From assembly GCF_900343145.1 (NCBI RefSeq), contig NZ_LT996886.1, positions 1,922,001-1,986,000 of the forward strand: a stretch of 64,000 nucleotides of DNA, in the 5' to 3' direction. The stretch comes from Tessaracoccus timonensis. Lineage in GTDB: Bacteria > Actinomycetota > Actinomycetes > Propionibacteriales > Propionibacteriaceae. A model generated the notes under the pieces. It made no database searches, had not been told where the DNA came from, and saw nothing but the letters and a program-made list of their open reading frames with translations. Of the stretch, positions 40,774 to 46,130 are shown piece after piece; position 1 is the first letter of the stretch, and every line of letters starts with the position of its first letter. The translations under genes and the position numbers were made by a program.

Positions 40774-40799
40774 CGTGTCCGAGAGAGGACTTGAACCTC
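40774..40799 (-). other. Copy of tRNA-Leu 3' end, attachment-site-like
   Basis: These 26 bases are identical to 46105-46130, the T-arm and acceptor 3' half of the intact tRNA-Leu gene, and in the same orientation. The rest of a tRNA is not present next to it: the flanking bases do not form D or anticodon arms. A lone tRNA 3' end at the distance of one small element is the usual trace of integration by a tyrosine recombinase. Confidence 0.75.
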
Positions 40800-40879
40800 T
40801 GCTTAAATCGCTGTAACTAGGTCTTATGCCGAAATCATCCGGCCATGTGTCTATTTTGTGTCTATTCGGGCCGTCGGCC

Positions 40880-40922
40880 CATACTCTGCATAGTCTGCAT
40901 ACTCAGCAATGTATGCATACTC
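40880..40922. repeat. Cluster of short direct repeats (CATACTC)
   Basis: CATACTC occurs at 40880-40886, 40898-40904 and 40916-40922, each 18 bp from the next, with TGCAT around them. Regular 18-bp spacing puts them on nearly the same DNA face and suggests iterons or protein-binding sites. They lie 27 bp upstream of a small ORF at 40949. Confidence 0.6.
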
Positions 40923-40948
40923 TGAGACACACAGGGGGAGTGCAGAGA

Positions 40949-41113
40949 ATGGCCGTTTGCGGCGTTTCCGGGCGTGTGGGTGCTCGTTGCGGCTGTGATG
41001 GTCGGGGTGGATGCCATGCCGCTATCTGTGAATGGGGCTTGCTTGGGTTGTGGGTGTGGGTGGCGGCTGTTGCCGTCATGGCAACGGTTGCTCGGGGTTT
41101 GCGGCTTGTCTGA
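40949..41113 (+). CDS. Possible 54-aa Cys-rich single-span membrane protein
   Basis: ATG at 40949 has GGGGGAG 8 nt upstream. The peptide has five Cys in its first 27 residues (MAVCGVSGRVGARCGCDGRG...) and a single C-terminal membrane helix (LLGLWVWVAAVAVMATVARG). Small proteins of this kind are common on actinobacterial plasmids and integrative elements. No function is known to me. Support is the ribosome-binding site and the repeats upstream only. Confidence 0.4.
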   Translation: MAVCGVSGRVGARCGCDGRGGCHAAICEWGLLGLWVWVAAVAVMATVARGLRLV

Positions 41114-41146
41114 GTGTCGGTGATCCATCTATCCCCATCCCCAGCT

Positions 41147-41593
41147 TTACAAAAAGGGTTCGGCGAATTCGATTGTGCGTTCGATCCTGGCTTGGCCACC
41201 ACCGGCGCTAGTCACGGTCGAGCCGTGGCCGAGCTGCTTCTCCACCTCATGGAATGGCACGGTGGCGGTGATGTCCACGTGTTGCGCCGTGACGTGGCCG
41301 TCGCTCGACAGGACCCCGCTGGCCGTGCCGTCGACGTTCAGTAGCGAGGATGCAGGCAGTGACATTCCGCCAGATTGGAGATCGATGTCATCGATCCATA
41401 TGTCTTCCTCGCTCAGCTCCGCTGGGGGTGACGGGGTGCTGGGCGTCGGGCGGGGCGCTGGCGTTCCCGGCTCCTGCCCAGCTGGTCTCGAGATGGAGAA
41501 CCATGCGATGACGAGCACGACGATGATCAGCACCAGCATGCCGAGGGCACCCAGCAGGACATACAGGACCGGAGAACGTTTCACGCACGTCAT
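41147..41593 (-). CDS. DUF2993 (LmeA-like) protein, C-terminally truncated
   Basis: A 148-aa protein with one N-terminal membrane helix (VLYVLLGALGMLVLIIVVLVI), a Pro/Thr-rich linker and the first part of a DUF2993-type domain: DGHVTAQHVDITATVPFHEV and GGGQARIERTIEF. Full DUF2993 domains continue for roughly 80 residues after this point; here the frame stops at EPFL. DUF2993/LmeA proteins bind lipids in mycobacterial envelope biogenesis. It is the last gene of the minus-strand cluster and ends about 350 bp from the tRNA-derived repeat. Domain assignment is from memory of motifs. Confidence 0.6.
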   Translation of the reverse strand: MTCVKRSPVLYVLLGALGMLVLIIVVLVIAWFSISRPAGQEPGTPAPRPTPSTPSPPAELSEEDIWIDDIDLQSGGMSLPASSLLNVDGTASGVLSSDGHVTAQHVDITATVPFHEVEKQLGHGSTVTSAGGGQARIERTIEFAEPFL

Positions 41594-41632
41594 TCTGCAC
41601 GCCTGCGGTGTCAGGCCGGTGGGCTCCGACCA

Positions 41633-43177
41633 TCAACGACCGGCGAGCCAATTCCTCCCGAAGTCCGTCACAACGATGTTCAGTTCCTTATCCTCCGTCG
41701 GCTCCTGTGCGGGTCCAGGCTCCGACTCGGCCGAAATGTCCGGCTCTTCGACGGAGGTCGCCGCCCCCTCTCGGAACACCTTGTCGAGCCGCACGGTCGT
41801 GACAGTCTCCGAGTTCCACGTCTCGCTGAGCCGTCCCTCACGGAAGACAAAGAGCCTCCGGGTCCACGACACCAGCTCGCGGCTGTCAGACGAGATGAGC
41901 ACCACGGCCATTCCACGCTCAGTGGCGGCAGTCAGGTGCTCGTGCAGGGCTGCTCGGGCTGCGGCGTCCAGCGTGGCAGAGGGATCCTCAAGGACTAGGA
42001 CCGCTGCGTTTGCGGAGAGCAGAGCGGACAAGTAGCGACTCTCCGTCTGACCGAACGACCCCTGCCGTTCGCCGAACAGCTTGAGCCCGTGGTTGTCCAT
42101 CTGTTCCATGGCTGCCAAGATCGAGGCAGTGGCGGTCTGAGCCTCGTCGAAGTCGTCGTCATCCTCGATGCCGACCACAAGGTTTGCGGCGACGTGATCG
42201 CCTCCCGCGCCCGGCCAATGGTGGGCGATGCCTGCTCGAACTGCTCCCTCGCGAGTGTTGATCGACGCCTGCCTGCCCTGTACTGTCACCGTGCCGCTCT
42301 CGACGGGTGCCTTCCCTGTCAACGCGGCAATCACATCCTGCATGCCCGAGTCTCGTCCACCGACGAACCCGACGATCTCGCCCGCGGCCACGGTAAAGCT
42401 CACGTCGGACACCACTCCGGACGAGAGGCCGACAACTTCAAGGGCCACCTGGTCTCGGACGTGAGATTTCGGAACGCTGTGAGCGATGGGGCCTGCGTGG
42501 ATCTCTCCTTCGAGGTCGGCGTCGGGATCCGTCTCTACAAGAGTCCCTTCGCGCAGGAGCAACACTCGATCGCACAAGGCGCGAACCTCGTCTAAGCGAT
42601 GGGAGACGTAGACGACGCTGCGGCCCTGGCTCGTGATCTTGTTGACGATCCAGTGGAGCTCGTCCAACTCACGCGTATTGAACCTAGCCGAGACCTCGTC
42701 GACAAGCACCACATCCACGGTGTCATCCGCCCACAAGCGCATGGATTCGACTAGGCCGACATCCGGTCTGGTGAGACCCCCTACCCGCGACATCGGATCC
42801 AGCGAAATCCCTGCCTGTGCCAACAGGGCCCGTGCACGCTGGCGTTCTTCCGACGGGCCGATGTTGGTGCCGCGAAAGATCGCCTGAGCGACGGTGAGCC
42901 CCGGGTTGACGTTGAAGCGTTGGGCGATCAGACCGGTCTGCGCCTCGCGGCCCTTTGCTAAGACGGACTCTCCGTGAGTGATCTGCCCGTCGTCGGGCTG
43001 GATCTCACCGGCGAGGATACCGAGCAAGGTGGACTTGCCCGCCCCGTTGGGTCCGATGATTCCGACGCATTCTCCGGACCGAACCTCCAGCTCCACATCG
43101 CTGAAGATCTCCCGGTTCCCGAAGTTCTTCGCCAGCTTTTCCGCGGAAAGTAACACGCGGTCATTCATGTTGGGCAC
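41633..43177 (-). CDS. RbsA-like tandem ABC ATPase, degenerate, no permease nearby
   Basis: This 514-aa protein has two ABC modules in the layout of monosaccharide-transport ATPases. Module 1 keeps Walker A GPNGAGKSTLLG (residues 42-53) and the H-loop YVSHRLDEV, but its signature region reads GGLTRPDVGLVESMR and its Walker B VVLVDEVSA. Module 2 has a non-standard P-loop (GFVGGRDSGMQDV) and VLVLEDPSATLD. No permease or sugar-binding protein adjoins it. The neighbours are a coiled-coil membrane protein and a BON-OmpA protein, so a role other than sugar transport is likely. The start is GTG 43177 or ATG 43168. Confidence 0.8.
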   Translation of the reverse strand: MPNMNDRVLLSAEKLAKNFGNREIFSDVELEVRSGECVGIIGPNGAGKSTLLGILAGEIQPDDGQITHGESVLAKGREAQTGLIAQRFNVNPGLTVAQAIFRGTNIGPSEERQRARALLAQAGISLDPMSRVGGLTRPDVGLVESMRLWADDTVDVVLVDEVSARFNTRELDELHWIVNKITSQGRSVVYVSHRLDEVRALCDRVLLLREGTLVETDPDADLEGEIHAGPIAHSVPKSHVRDQVALEVVGLSSGVVSDVSFTVAAGEIVGFVGGRDSGMQDVIAALTGKAPVESGTVTVQGRQASINTREGAVRAGIAHHWPGAGGDHVAANLVVGIEDDDDFDEAQTATASILAAMEQMDNHGLKLFGERQGSFGQTESRYLSALLSANAAVLVLEDPSATLDAAARAALHEHLTAATERGMAVVLISSDSRELVSWTRRLFVFREGRLSETWNSETVTTVRLDKVFREGAATSVEEPDISAESEPGPAQEPTEDKELNIVVTDFGRNWLAGR

Positions 43178-43895
43178 CCCCGGCGCTCCTCAGCGCATCT
43201 CGTAGTCGGTGAGCCTTCTCCTGCTCAATGAGGCGCAGGTTGTCGGACTCGTTCAGCCTCTGCACCAAGCTCTGGTTTTCCTCTTGGAGCTGGTTCAACT
43301 TAGTTTCGAGCGTTGCGATCGTCTCGTCCCACGCTTGGATAGCGCGTGCTTCCAATCTGGCCATCTCCTGCTCGGTGTGACGGAGCTTCTCGCGGAGGAG
43401 CTCTTCCTCGTCGGACTTGGTCGGCGTCTCGTCAAGGTCAGCGACAGAGGGCGCTGCCCGTGACGTTTCCTCGGGTTCGTAGGCCATCGCCCCTGCTGTC
43501 TCCATCCGTTGGTGAGGCTCCTCAGCAGCTGAGCTGAGGTCGCCTCCTCGGACCTCGGATGATTCGGCGGGCACTGCAACGCGCGCTTGACGCGTCGTCG
43601 TATCTTCCAGCGGATCAGGAGACGCGACCTGAGCTCCGCCACGAGCCGGGGCTACGGGCCCGCTCTCGGCTGTCCGCCGCGGTTGTTCTTGGATCTCCTC
43701 GCGAGCGGCATGCGTCGTGGCGGGGGCTTCGTGCGCGCGCTCCGCTGGCGGTCGCAACTGTCCCTCAGCGTGCGACGAAGCCTCCACTGGGGTGGACCGT
43801 CGACGGCCGATTAGGAAGCCCAGCAAGGCGGCCAAGGCGGCGACCACGACGAGGACCACGAGGATCTGCAGATATGCGTAGGCGAAACCTTGCAC
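43161..43895 (-). CDS. Membrane-anchored coiled-coil protein
   Basis: A 244-aa protein with an N-terminal membrane helix (residues about 4-27, YLQILVVLVVVAALAALLGF) and an Arg-rich stop. A disordered Pro/Ala/Glu linker of about 130 residues follows, then a C-terminal coiled coil (EEELLREKLRHTEQEMARLE onward). The GTG at 43895 is chosen because AAGGA lies upstream and the helix starts at once; it is 1 bp after the OmpA-gene stop. It overlaps the ATPase gene by 17 bp. Family unknown; a scaffold for the ATPase is plausible. Confidence 0.72.
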   Translation of the reverse strand: MQGFAYAYLQILVVLVVVAALAALLGFLIGRRRSTPVEASSHAEGQLRPPAERAHEAPATTHAAREEIQEQPRRTAESGPVAPARGGAQVASPDPLEDTTTRQARVAVPAESSEVRGGDLSSAAEEPHQRMETAGAMAYEPEETSRAAPSVADLDETPTKSDEEELLREKLRHTEQEMARLEARAIQAWDETIATLETKLNQLQEENQSLVQRLNESDNLRLIEQEKAHRLRDALRSAGGAQHE

Positions 43896-43896
43896 G

Positions 43897-44640
43897 TCAT
43901 CCTTCCTGGAAGGTGATTTCGACCCGACGGTTGAGCTGACGCCCGTCCGGGGTGTCGTTTGGGGCGACGGGGTTTGCATCCCCGCCTGCGACCGTGGTGA
44001 TGCGGGCTTCATCGACACCGGCGTCCAGCAGCACCTCTTGGGCGGCGGAGGCTCGTGCGTCGGAAAGCGCGCGTCGGCCCGCCTCGTCTTGGCCATTGTC
44101 GGTGTATCCCGTGAGCGTGACCATGACGTCAGGGTGCGCGGTCAAATATTCGGCCAACTCCCGCAGCACCGTCTCGTCTTCCGAGCGCACGGAGGCGCTC
44201 GCCCCTTCGAACATCAGGTTGGGGTAGGAAGGTGGTTCGGCCGAGGTCGATGGAGTGGCAGGGGTGGGGGAGGCGTCGTTCGTCACCGGGGGTGGTGTCG
44301 TGGATGGCGACTCAGGCGCCGCCGGGCTCGCTTCCTCGCTTGGCTGGGAGGAGCCCGGAGGTTGATGATCCTCGACTTGGACCACTCGCGTGCCACTCAC
44401 ACCCGAAACCACCGTGTGGGCTGTGTCCGCCGTCGCCGCATCGGCAAGGTTCGTCAGCGTCGCGTCGAAGCCCGAATAGGAAACGTCCGCGTGCACATCG
44501 GCGTTGGCCAATTCAGCGGCGGCACGCCGGGTGAGTTGAGACTCAGCCGACGAAACGACCCACGCTGATCCGGCCAATAGAGCTCCGGCCAAGGCCGCGG
44601 CGACGCCAGCCACCGGAGCCCATGATCTACCGCTGCTCAC
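43897..44640 (-). CDS. BON-OmpA family membrane protein (ArfA/OmpATb-like)
   Basis: A 247-aa protein with an N-terminal membrane segment (WAPVAGVAAALAGALLAGSAW). A BON-like half domain follows (about 50-95, ADVSYSGFDATLTNLADAA and VVSGVSGTRVVQVED), then a Pro/Ser/Thr linker and a C-terminal OmpA domain (about 140-247) with peptidoglycan-binding-type blocks VTLTGYTDNGQDEAGRRALS and NRRVEITF. This order is that of mycobacterial ArfA (OmpATb). GAAGGAGG precedes the GTG. It is the first gene of the minus-strand operon and would anchor the complex to the wall. The BON call is tentative. Confidence 0.8.
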   Translation of the reverse strand: MSSGRSWAPVAGVAAALAGALLAGSAWVVSSAESQLTRRAAAELANADVHADVSYSGFDATLTNLADAATADTAHTVVSGVSGTRVVQVEDHQPPGSSQPSEEASPAAPESPSTTPPPVTNDASPTPATPSTSAEPPSYPNLMFEGASASVRSEDETVLRELAEYLTAHPDVMVTLTGYTDNGQDEAGRRALSDARASAAQEVLLDAGVDEARITTVAGGDANPVAPNDTPDGRQLNRRVEITFQEG

Positions 44641-44911
44641 AGTGGATCCTCCTTCAGAGGTGCTCGACGTGCCTCCCGCTAGCGGTCAAGAAACGGTATC
44701 CCGGAGAGCTTACCGGGGTTTCCATCCCGAAGCGTATCACTGAGCGGCTAGGCTCAATGCGTCATTGAGGTTGAAGTAGTCCAAACTTGCATATCTCCGG
44801 AGTCCAATAGTGTACTGGTGGCTCCACAGTAGTTCCTCATCCATGGCCTCCAAGGAGGTCCGGGGGGCTTAGTACAACTGGACAGCACAGCAGTGTTGAG
44901 AGGAAAAGATT
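44641..44911. promoter_or_regulatory. Divergent control region between the two arms of the cluster
   Basis: 271 bases separate the BON-OmpA gene (minus) and the Roadblock gene (plus), so two divergent promoters must lie here. I see TTGACC on the minus strand near 44690 and a CCTCCAAGGAGG palindrome at 44847-44858, but no promoter that I can place with confidence. Confidence 0.5.
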
Positions 44912-45301
44912 ATGACCAGCAACTACATCGTCAGCAAGACTGATGAGCTCTCTAGGGTGATCGGCAATATGCGCCGGTCCATCCCGGAGCTACACGGCGT
45001 GATGATCGCGTCCACCGACGGCCTGCCCGTCGCCCATGATTTCTCGGACTCCGACGCAGAGCGCATCGCGGCCATGGCCGCTACCGCTCTGGGCCTCGGT
45101 GGGCGAATTGCTGAGCGCGCTGAGCTGGGCGATTTTGCCGAAGCCGTGGTTCGCGGACAGAACGGCTACATGGTGACGTACTCGGCCGGCACCGACGCCG
45201 TGCTCGTCCTCACCGGCCCCATCGACTCCAACCTCGGCCTCATGCGCATCGAAGCTCGCGTCGCCGCCGTTGAACTCAAGCAGCTCCTCGGGAGGGCCTG
45301 A
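44912..45301 (+). CDS. Roadblock/LC7-domain protein
   Basis: A 129-aa protein that is a single Roadblock/LC7 domain: SIPELHGVMIASTDGLPVAHD, then AAMAATALGLGGRIA and GYMVTYSAGTDAVLVLTGP. Bacterial Roadblock proteins such as MglB regulate small GTPases, and in Streptomyces conservons they sit with a histidine kinase, DUF742 protein and GTPase. None of those partners is present here; instead a globin gene follows 2 bp downstream. GAGAGG lies upstream of the ATG. Confidence 0.92.
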   Translation: MTSNYIVSKTDELSRVIGNMRRSIPELHGVMIASTDGLPVAHDFSDSDAERIAAMAATALGLGGRIAERAELGDFAEAVVRGQNGYMVTYSAGTDAVLVLTGPIDSNLGLMRIEARVAAVELKQLLGRA

Positions 45302-45303
45302 GC

Positions 45304-45912
45304 ATGGATTCGATGCATGACATCGCGAAGACGGCGATCGACCAGGCGCCCCCGGAGTGCCGCGTCCGCCCTGAAGATGCTGACGTCATCCAGCGGCACG
45401 CGGATGCACTCGTCGGGCTTGGACCCGAGATGGTCAATGCCTTCTACGACACCGTGTATGGACACTCGGAGACGGAGAAGATCTTCAAGCCAGGCGAGCG
45501 TCCCATGCGTGAGGAGTCGCTGCAGGGCTGGTGGGAACGGACTGTCCGCGGGCCCCTCGACGACGACTACTGGGCGTGGATGGCACTGGTTGGGCTCACG
45601 CACGTCATCCGGCGGGTGAACAACCCAATGATGCTCGCCATGGCCAACTTTGTGGCGCAGTTTGTGGAAAGCAGCGAGTCGCTGGAGATCTCCGACGATG
45701 AGCGCCGCGAGCTGTCGGTGGCCTTCCGTCGAGTCTCGTCGACGGTGAGCTCCATCATCACGTTCGCGTACGATCACGCAGTCAGCTCCGCGCTCTTCAG
45801 CGTCGCTGGTATGCCAGAAGCGCTCCTAGCGCGGCTTCGTGACCAAGAGGTCGGTGACGCTCTCGACAAGGCGCACAAGGAAGTACGCTCCGCTTCGCTC
45901 CACGGCTCTTGA
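45304..45912 (+). CDS. Protoglobin-domain protein
   Basis: A 202-aa protein whose first ~130 residues fit the globin-sensor/protoglobin family: VGLGPEMVNAFYDTVYG near residue 37, then WWERTVRGPLDDDYWAWMALVGLTHVIRRVN. His100 is in the position of the proximal haem ligand. The C-terminal ~70 residues are helical and carry no recognised output domain. It starts 2 bp after the Roadblock gene (GGGAGG upstream), so the two products are made together. Haem binding is inferred from the pattern. Confidence 0.85.
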   Translation: MDSMHDIAKTAIDQAPPECRVRPEDADVIQRHADALVGLGPEMVNAFYDTVYGHSETEKIFKPGERPMREESLQGWWERTVRGPLDDDYWAWMALVGLTHVIRRVNNPMMLAMANFVAQFVESSESLEISDDERRELSVAFRRVSSTVSSIITFAYDHAVSSALFSVAGMPEALLARLRDQEVGDALDKAHKEVRSASLHGS

Positions 45913-45919
45913 GCGAGTG

Positions 45920-45954
45920 AAACCCCGTGCCGTCACGCCGATGGCACGGGGTTT
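45920..45954 (+). terminator. Terminator after the protoglobin gene
   Basis: AAACCCCGTGCC (45920-45931) pairs perfectly with GGCACGGGGTTT (45943-45954), followed by CTCAC, 7 nt past the globin stop. Confidence 0.85.
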
Positions 45955-46062
45955 CTCACGCCGCAAAACACGCGGGCCGAGCAAAGGACACGAAGCTCAC
46001 AAGGCGCACGCGCGGGAAGGCCGTCCCGCGGTCCAATGCAAACGGGCGGACCAGGGAAAGAT

Positions 46063-46101
46063 AAACCCCGCATGACTGTGTTCATCAGTCATGCGGGGTT
46101 T
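46063..46101 (-). terminator. Terminator of tRNA-Leu
   Basis: A 16-bp perfect stem (46063-46078 with 46086-46101) lies just past the tRNA 3' end and ends in T-rich sequence on the minus strand. It differs in sequence from the hairpin beside the distant tRNA copy. Confidence 0.8.
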
Positions 46102-46104
46102 TCG

Positions 46105-46130
46105 CGTGTCCGAGAGAGGACTTGAACCTC
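46105..46130 (-). other. tRNA 3'-end repeat, intact side
   Basis: The 26-bp sequence within and just after the tRNA-Leu gene that is repeated exactly at 40774-40799. The pair brackets 5.3 kb that holds the Roadblock/protoglobin/OmpA cluster. Confidence 0.75.

Follow-up and report, generated by a model that had tools for sequence, protein, structure and literature searches.

Roadblock proteins are known regulators of small GTPases. In conservons (CvnA-D), a CvnB Roadblock protein is accompanied by a histidine kinase (CvnA), a DUF742 protein (CvnC, PF05331) and a small Ras-like GTPase (CvnD), and the accessory proteins CvnE (a P450) or CvnF (GAF) are haem or GAF proteins (PMC13343842). The MglA/MglB polarity switch also combines a Roadblock protein with a Ras-like GTPase. 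In addition, an orphan clade of actinobacterial MglB proteins has been described, for which no partners were reported (Wuichet and Sogaard-Andersen, 2014; PMC4316618).

Here we analysed a 64,000-nt stretch (the window) of the complete 2.76-Mb genome (G000) of Tessaracoccus timonensis. It contains a real, seldom found module comprising a Roadblock protein (E), a sensor-type globin (F), a wall-anchored membrane protein (D), a coiled-coil protein (C) and a P-loop NTPase (B). The module shares with the conservons the Roadblock core, a GTPase in the form found in relatives, and a haem- or ligand-binding accessory protein; however, it adds an OmpA protein, a coiled-coil scaffold and an ABC ATPase. 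E is CvnB-like by its Pfam assignment and its match to 3leq. No match to CvnC was detected in the window genome, and no small Ras-like GTPase of the CvnD type, which occurs only in the relatives' form; a CvnA-like histidine kinase near the Roadblock gene is absent between 36 and 50 kb of the window. With CvnC and CvnD missing and no CvnA beside the Roadblock gene, identity with a conservon was ruled out. The Roadblock and Ras-like GTPase of the MglA/MglB switch are matched in the Millisia and Gulosibacter form of the module, whereas the window form has no such GTPase and its operon encodes membrane and wall anchors. Like the members of the orphan MglB clade, E is an actinobacterial Roadblock protein without flanking conservon genes, and it may belong to that clade. 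In the literature collection searched, no publication mentions both roadblock and protoglobin.

Layout of the locus and its flanking repeats

All six open reading frames listed in the earlier note are present in the window (Table 1), and the gene order, strands and spacings given there match the sequence. E and F are separated by 2 bp and D and C by 1 bp; the C and B frames have 17 bp in common, and A begins 39 bp past B. The assignments of E and F to the Roadblock and protoglobin families were borne out by Pfam (Robl_LC7 and Protoglobin). The same is true of the OmpA part of D, and of B as an RbsA-like ATPase without a permease (ABC_tran; RbsA/AraG family models; no permease beside the gene). 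The exception is A, which had been called DUF2993-type and counted as the sixth component of the system: it matched no Pfam family at E<=0.1, and as no relative of A was found in any module locus searched, it was excluded from the module.

Table 1. Features of the locus, and frames from other loci mentioned in the text (window positions unless a locus label is given)
Feature	Position	Strand	Basis
E, Roadblock/LC7 protein, 129 aa, MglB/CvnB-like	44912..45301	+	Pfam 1.7e-17; closest solved structures
F, 202-aa globin of the sensor type (protoglobin family)	45304..45912	+	Pfam 1.3e-15; alignment; structure model
D, TM helix, BON-like domain, Pro/Ser/Thr linker and OmpA peptidoglycan-binding domain	43897..44640	-	Pfam OmpA 7e-18; model; Foldseek; alignment
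C, 244 aa, GTG start; coiled coil preceded by an N-terminal TM segment	43161..43895	-	alignment; profile match
B, permease-less RbsA-like double ABC ATPase	41633..43177	-	Pfam ABC_tran 2.4e-25; family models; tree; motifs
A, 148-aa predicted membrane-anchored protein, inside the islet, outside the conserved module	41147..41593	-	no Pfam family; no homologue
Divergent intergenic region separating the two arms, 271 bp	44641..44911	.	sequence
Outer copy of the 26-bp direct repeat (tRNA-Leu 3' end), att-like	40774..40799	+	repeat search
26-bp direct repeat, inside the 3' end of tRNA-Leu(GAG)	46105..46130	+	repeat search
DnaJ-like frames (Pseudoclavibacter / Bifidobacterium MAG)	L084:12200-13555, L089:12376-13677, L091:10485-11537		
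Loci of the ~123-aa family	L099:8960-9328, L106:2899-3267, L102:7458-7829, L126:7917-8288, L127:1267-1638, L128:7235-7609		

The region from 40774 to 46130 has perfect 26-bp repeats at both ends and holds all six genes. Zero such repeats are expected by chance, and a terminator-like hairpin adjoins each copy. Since repeats of a tRNA 3' end flank the cluster, the window copy looks like an islet inserted at a tRNA gene. The GC3 of the module genes (0.69-0.81) is lower than that of most neighbours (0.76-0.87). No integrase was found in the islet, and the search gave zero matches to phage families. In relatives the module occupies other sites without such a tRNA. The other module loci were rejected as tRNA-bracketed islets, having no tRNA nearby except a tRNA-Thr (L052) and a tmRNA (L091).

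Sequence features of the encoded proteins

E is the sole Roadblock match in the window genome, and its closest solved relatives are 7f8m and CvnB5 (3leq). The structure model of F (pLDDT 89) has the protoglobin/globin-coupled sensor fold with an extra C-terminal helix, and its top Foldseek matches are globin-coupled sensors. Alignment of F to AfGcHK and GsGCS placed His100 on H99 and Tyr48 on Y45 (positions counted on the alignment), which we take to be the proximal haem His and the distal position of AfGcHK, respectively. F thus resembles the globin-coupled sensors and sensor single-domain globins AfGcHK, Tlr1989 and GsGCS in fold, proximal His and distal-position Tyr, but it has no fused effector and is paired with a separate Roadblock gene. 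All 20 F sequences retain the proximal His, and 16 of them retain the distal Tyr. In the massiliense/Arachnia group (L011, L012, L013, L049), F has lost the distal Tyr together with a helix segment of about six residues and has retained the proximal His, which may reflect altered ligand binding or early decay.

The order of E and F and their close spacing, from an overlap of a few bp to 37 bp, are conserved in all F-positive loci of several families, and the E and F trees share their main split, between Propionibacteriaceae and other lineages. Haem binding by F is predicted, and gas sensing is a putative role; we give about even odds that F serves the Roadblock protein as a functional haem sensor. 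F is missing from 8 of the 21 loci in the family, so gas sensing would be optional.

The transmembrane segments and orientation of D and C were read from sequence. The AlphaFold model of D has a helix (11-46) followed by a beta-beta-alpha-beta arrangement ahead of a disordered linker, an order that would be expected for a BON domain; no BON match was obtained with Pfam. By model and Foldseek, the OmpA domain resembles OprF, Pal and the C domain of Rv0899, and in the alignment the Asp and Arg of the peptidoglycan (DAP) site (D181, R196) are retained. The transmembrane helix, BON-like region and OmpA C domain recall ArfA/OmpATb (Rv0899), which however belongs to another operon, whereas D is tied to a coiled coil and an NTPase. 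An alignment of C from 13 loci revealed a conserved C-terminal motif, RLE.gA..AWD. The length of C ranges from about 143 to 1315 aa (L010, L011, L012, L013, L049, L052, L061); the transmembrane start is kept throughout and the C-terminal motif in most.

B shares two fused nucleotide-binding domains (NBDs) and the NBD1 motifs with RbsA-type double ABC ATPases, but differs in having no permease, a missing Walker A2 and a clade of its own. Walker A1 (K48) and Walker B1 with its Glu are kept, and the H-loop of NBD1 is kept in nearly all copies. Walker A2 is lost in B of all module members, in contrast to the transporter control (L100); the LSGGQ-type signature of NBD1 is degraded or lost and that of NBD2 is weak and partly kept. 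With Walker A2 lost and the NBD1 motifs kept, one composite ATP site is left. Of the features of an RbsA-type importer, B has two fused NBDs and the Walker A1 and B1 motifs, and lacks the adjacent permease and binding protein and intact signatures. B is probably an ATP-dependent switch and not a transporter.

A tree that included permease-linked Propionibacteriaceae ATPases of the RbsA type as controls placed B in a clade (support 97/97) apart from the permease-linked control and from the other ATPases of the genus. The clade covers 17 genomes; every one of the 16 genomes that have E and do not belong to genus g17 is among them. B directly follows C, with an overlap or a few bp between them, in seven genomes; in nine it lies away from the E-D-C locus, and both B and E are still carried. 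This unlinking occurred about once in the B tree. No permease or binding protein was found beside B in the module loci, and the unlinked copies likewise have no adjacent permease. In the seventeenth member (G135), C and B are kept, E is gone, and truncated F and D lie end to end (L097:6690-8040), which we read as a deletion or an assembly fault.

Distribution of the module and the gene after C

The E profile matched 21 of 198 Propionibacteriaceae genomes, in 5 of 29 genera. Among the named loci matched by a Roadblock scan of GTDB contigs are Arachnia propionica, [Pseudopropionibacterium] massiliense and Tessaracoccus sp. OH4464. D adjoins E in 18 of the 21 positive genomes and C, by similarity or position, in 20, the lone exception being at a contig edge. 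F is found in 13, within a few bp of E. In genus g17, a co-directional E-F-D-C operon is present in two genomes and an E-F-D run up to the contig end in a third (L053-L055), and two further genomes have an E-C operon; B occurs in this genus only as an unlinked sister type, with no GTPase and no NTPase beside C. The single E-F-D-C operon indicates that the two arms are one unit, and the proposal that they belong to one system is upheld by their co-location across families as well. According to the earlier note, independent occurrence of the genes in other genomes would have spoken against a common system; across actinobacteria they recur together, A excepted. We conclude that E, F, D, C and B almost certainly constitute one functional module.

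In the window's genus, E was detected in 13 of 39 genomes, and the identical 13 carry a B of the clade described above. The probability of this overlap by chance is about 1e-10 if the genomes are taken as independent, which they are not, so the figure overstates the association; shared ancestry partly explains it. In wider samples the module is rare. F was found in 1 of 395 genomes of the class, the window's own, and E in 4 of 396 genomes of the phylum, three of which have distant Roadblock loci without the module. In the Gulosibacter family, 3 of 300 genomes were positive.

Outside the family, the scan of GTDB contigs detected Roadblock loci in Kineosporia, Frankia, Dactylosporangium, Millisia, Pseudoclavibacter, Gulosibacter, Dermatophilus and others. 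In four lineages (Millisia, Gulosibacter, a Dermatophilus MAG and a Micrococcales MAG), C is followed directly by a small Ras/Roc-like GTPase and then by a second Roadblock gene. Two loci (L076, L078) contain the full operon E-F-D-C-GTPase-Robl2; F is absent from L080 and D from L088. The C proteins of the ABC-type and GTPase-type loci are homologous (hhalign 98.1%, E 1.2e-13). The two NTPases exclude each other: the GTPase profile matched only 1 of 198 Propionibacteriaceae genomes, and that genome lacks E. No second Roadblock was detected in the window genome, and its Ras matches fall only within long frames (963 and 502 aa), as would fit GTPases of translation or ribosome assembly. The earlier statement that the Roadblock protein lacks its usual partner therefore stands for the window genome, which has no small Ras-like GTPase, but not for the relatives, which encode a GTPase and a second Roadblock protein after C.

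Because B follows C, the C proteins are homologous and the GTPase is absent from E-positive genomes of the family, B stands in the place of the GTPase, and we consider it likely that it took over this slot. Parsimony favours an ancestral GTPase form and a later arrival of B, since Roadblock-GTPase pairs are widespread in bacteria (PMC4316618). The slot is not always filled by an NTPase: in g17 it holds none, and in Pseudoclavibacter it holds a gene for a DnaJ-like protein. In a Bifidobacterium MAG, a DnaJ-like frame likewise neighbours the Roadblock gene and is encoded on the opposite strand.

A 122-aa protein encoded beside sister-clade ABC ATPases (G139, G097) was considered as a second Roadblock protein, which neither Pfam nor profile comparison supported. 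In other actinomycetes, its relatives are neighbours of Roadblock and GTPase genes. Proteins of about 123 aa (alignment A14) make up an undescribed family with no significant Pfam match; their genes adjoin or lie close to those of permease-less RbsA-like ATPases in some Propionibacteriaceae, and in other actinomycetes they adjoin Roadblock/GTPase genes.

Candidate signalling mechanism and alternatives

For the protein-protein contacts, the direction of control and the output we infer the following scheme. The locus would encode a transmembrane signalling module built around the Roadblock protein. D would be tethered to peptidoglycan outside the membrane, and C would cross the membrane and display its coiled coil inside. 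The P-loop NTPase encoded right after C would bind the C scaffold, and a dimer of E would regulate the NTPase docked there. Where present, F would pass a haem-ligand or redox signal to E. In Propionibacteriaceae, the Ras-like GTPase would have been replaced by the permease-less RbsA-like B with its single composite ATP site. The output would probably concern wall growth or envelope stress. We give this scheme as a whole a probability of roughly 0.5. That B is a direct client of E is a tentative proposal, to which we give somewhat less than even odds. We hold still more tentatively that the Roadblock protein has exchanged one client for another: in place of a Ras-like GTPase, a non-homologous ABC ATPase would now be the nucleotide switch in a module that is anchored in the wall and controlled by a haem sensor.

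The main alternative for B accepts the module as real. In it, E would work by itself or with a different partner, and B would only power or remodel the C-D envelope complex in an FtsE-like manner, free of Roadblock control. This would agree with the overlap of B with C rather than with E, with the retention of E without an adjacent NTPase in g17 and Pseudoclavibacter, and with the reports of orphan actinobacterial MglB proteins (PMC4316618). B and E are nevertheless co-retained even where B is unlinked from C, and elsewhere the same slot holds a GTPase, the usual Roadblock client; we regard this alternative as somewhat unlikely. We find it quite improbable that B energises a sugar-type importer with a permease encoded at another site and that its position beside C is accidental. 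The family models do group it with RbsA/AraG ATPases, yet a permease is missing beside B in every module locus and beside the unlinked copies, its clade is distinct from the permease-linked control and the other ATPases of the genus, and the decay of its Walker A2 and signatures goes further than in the RbsA pattern.

As for the other arm, F might be a globin for NO or O2 detoxification that shares only a promoter with E, which would suit a single-domain protein without an effector domain that is absent from many loci. The constant E-F order and close spacing in several families and the common main split of the two trees argue against this, and we think it improbable. That the two arms are unrelated neighbours is suggested by their divergent orientation in the window, with 271 bp between them; their union in a single operon elsewhere, their co-location in several families and their enclosure in one repeat-bracketed islet make this extremely improbable.

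Under the preferred reading, in which B has replaced the GTPase of a wall-anchored Roadblock module, an ABC ATPase in the GTPase slot would be a natural exchange of P-loop switches and would directly test what Roadblock proteins recognise. The module would also connect an anchor in the cell wall with a sensor globin of the haem type, and it would place orphan actinobacterial MglB-like proteins in a physical context.
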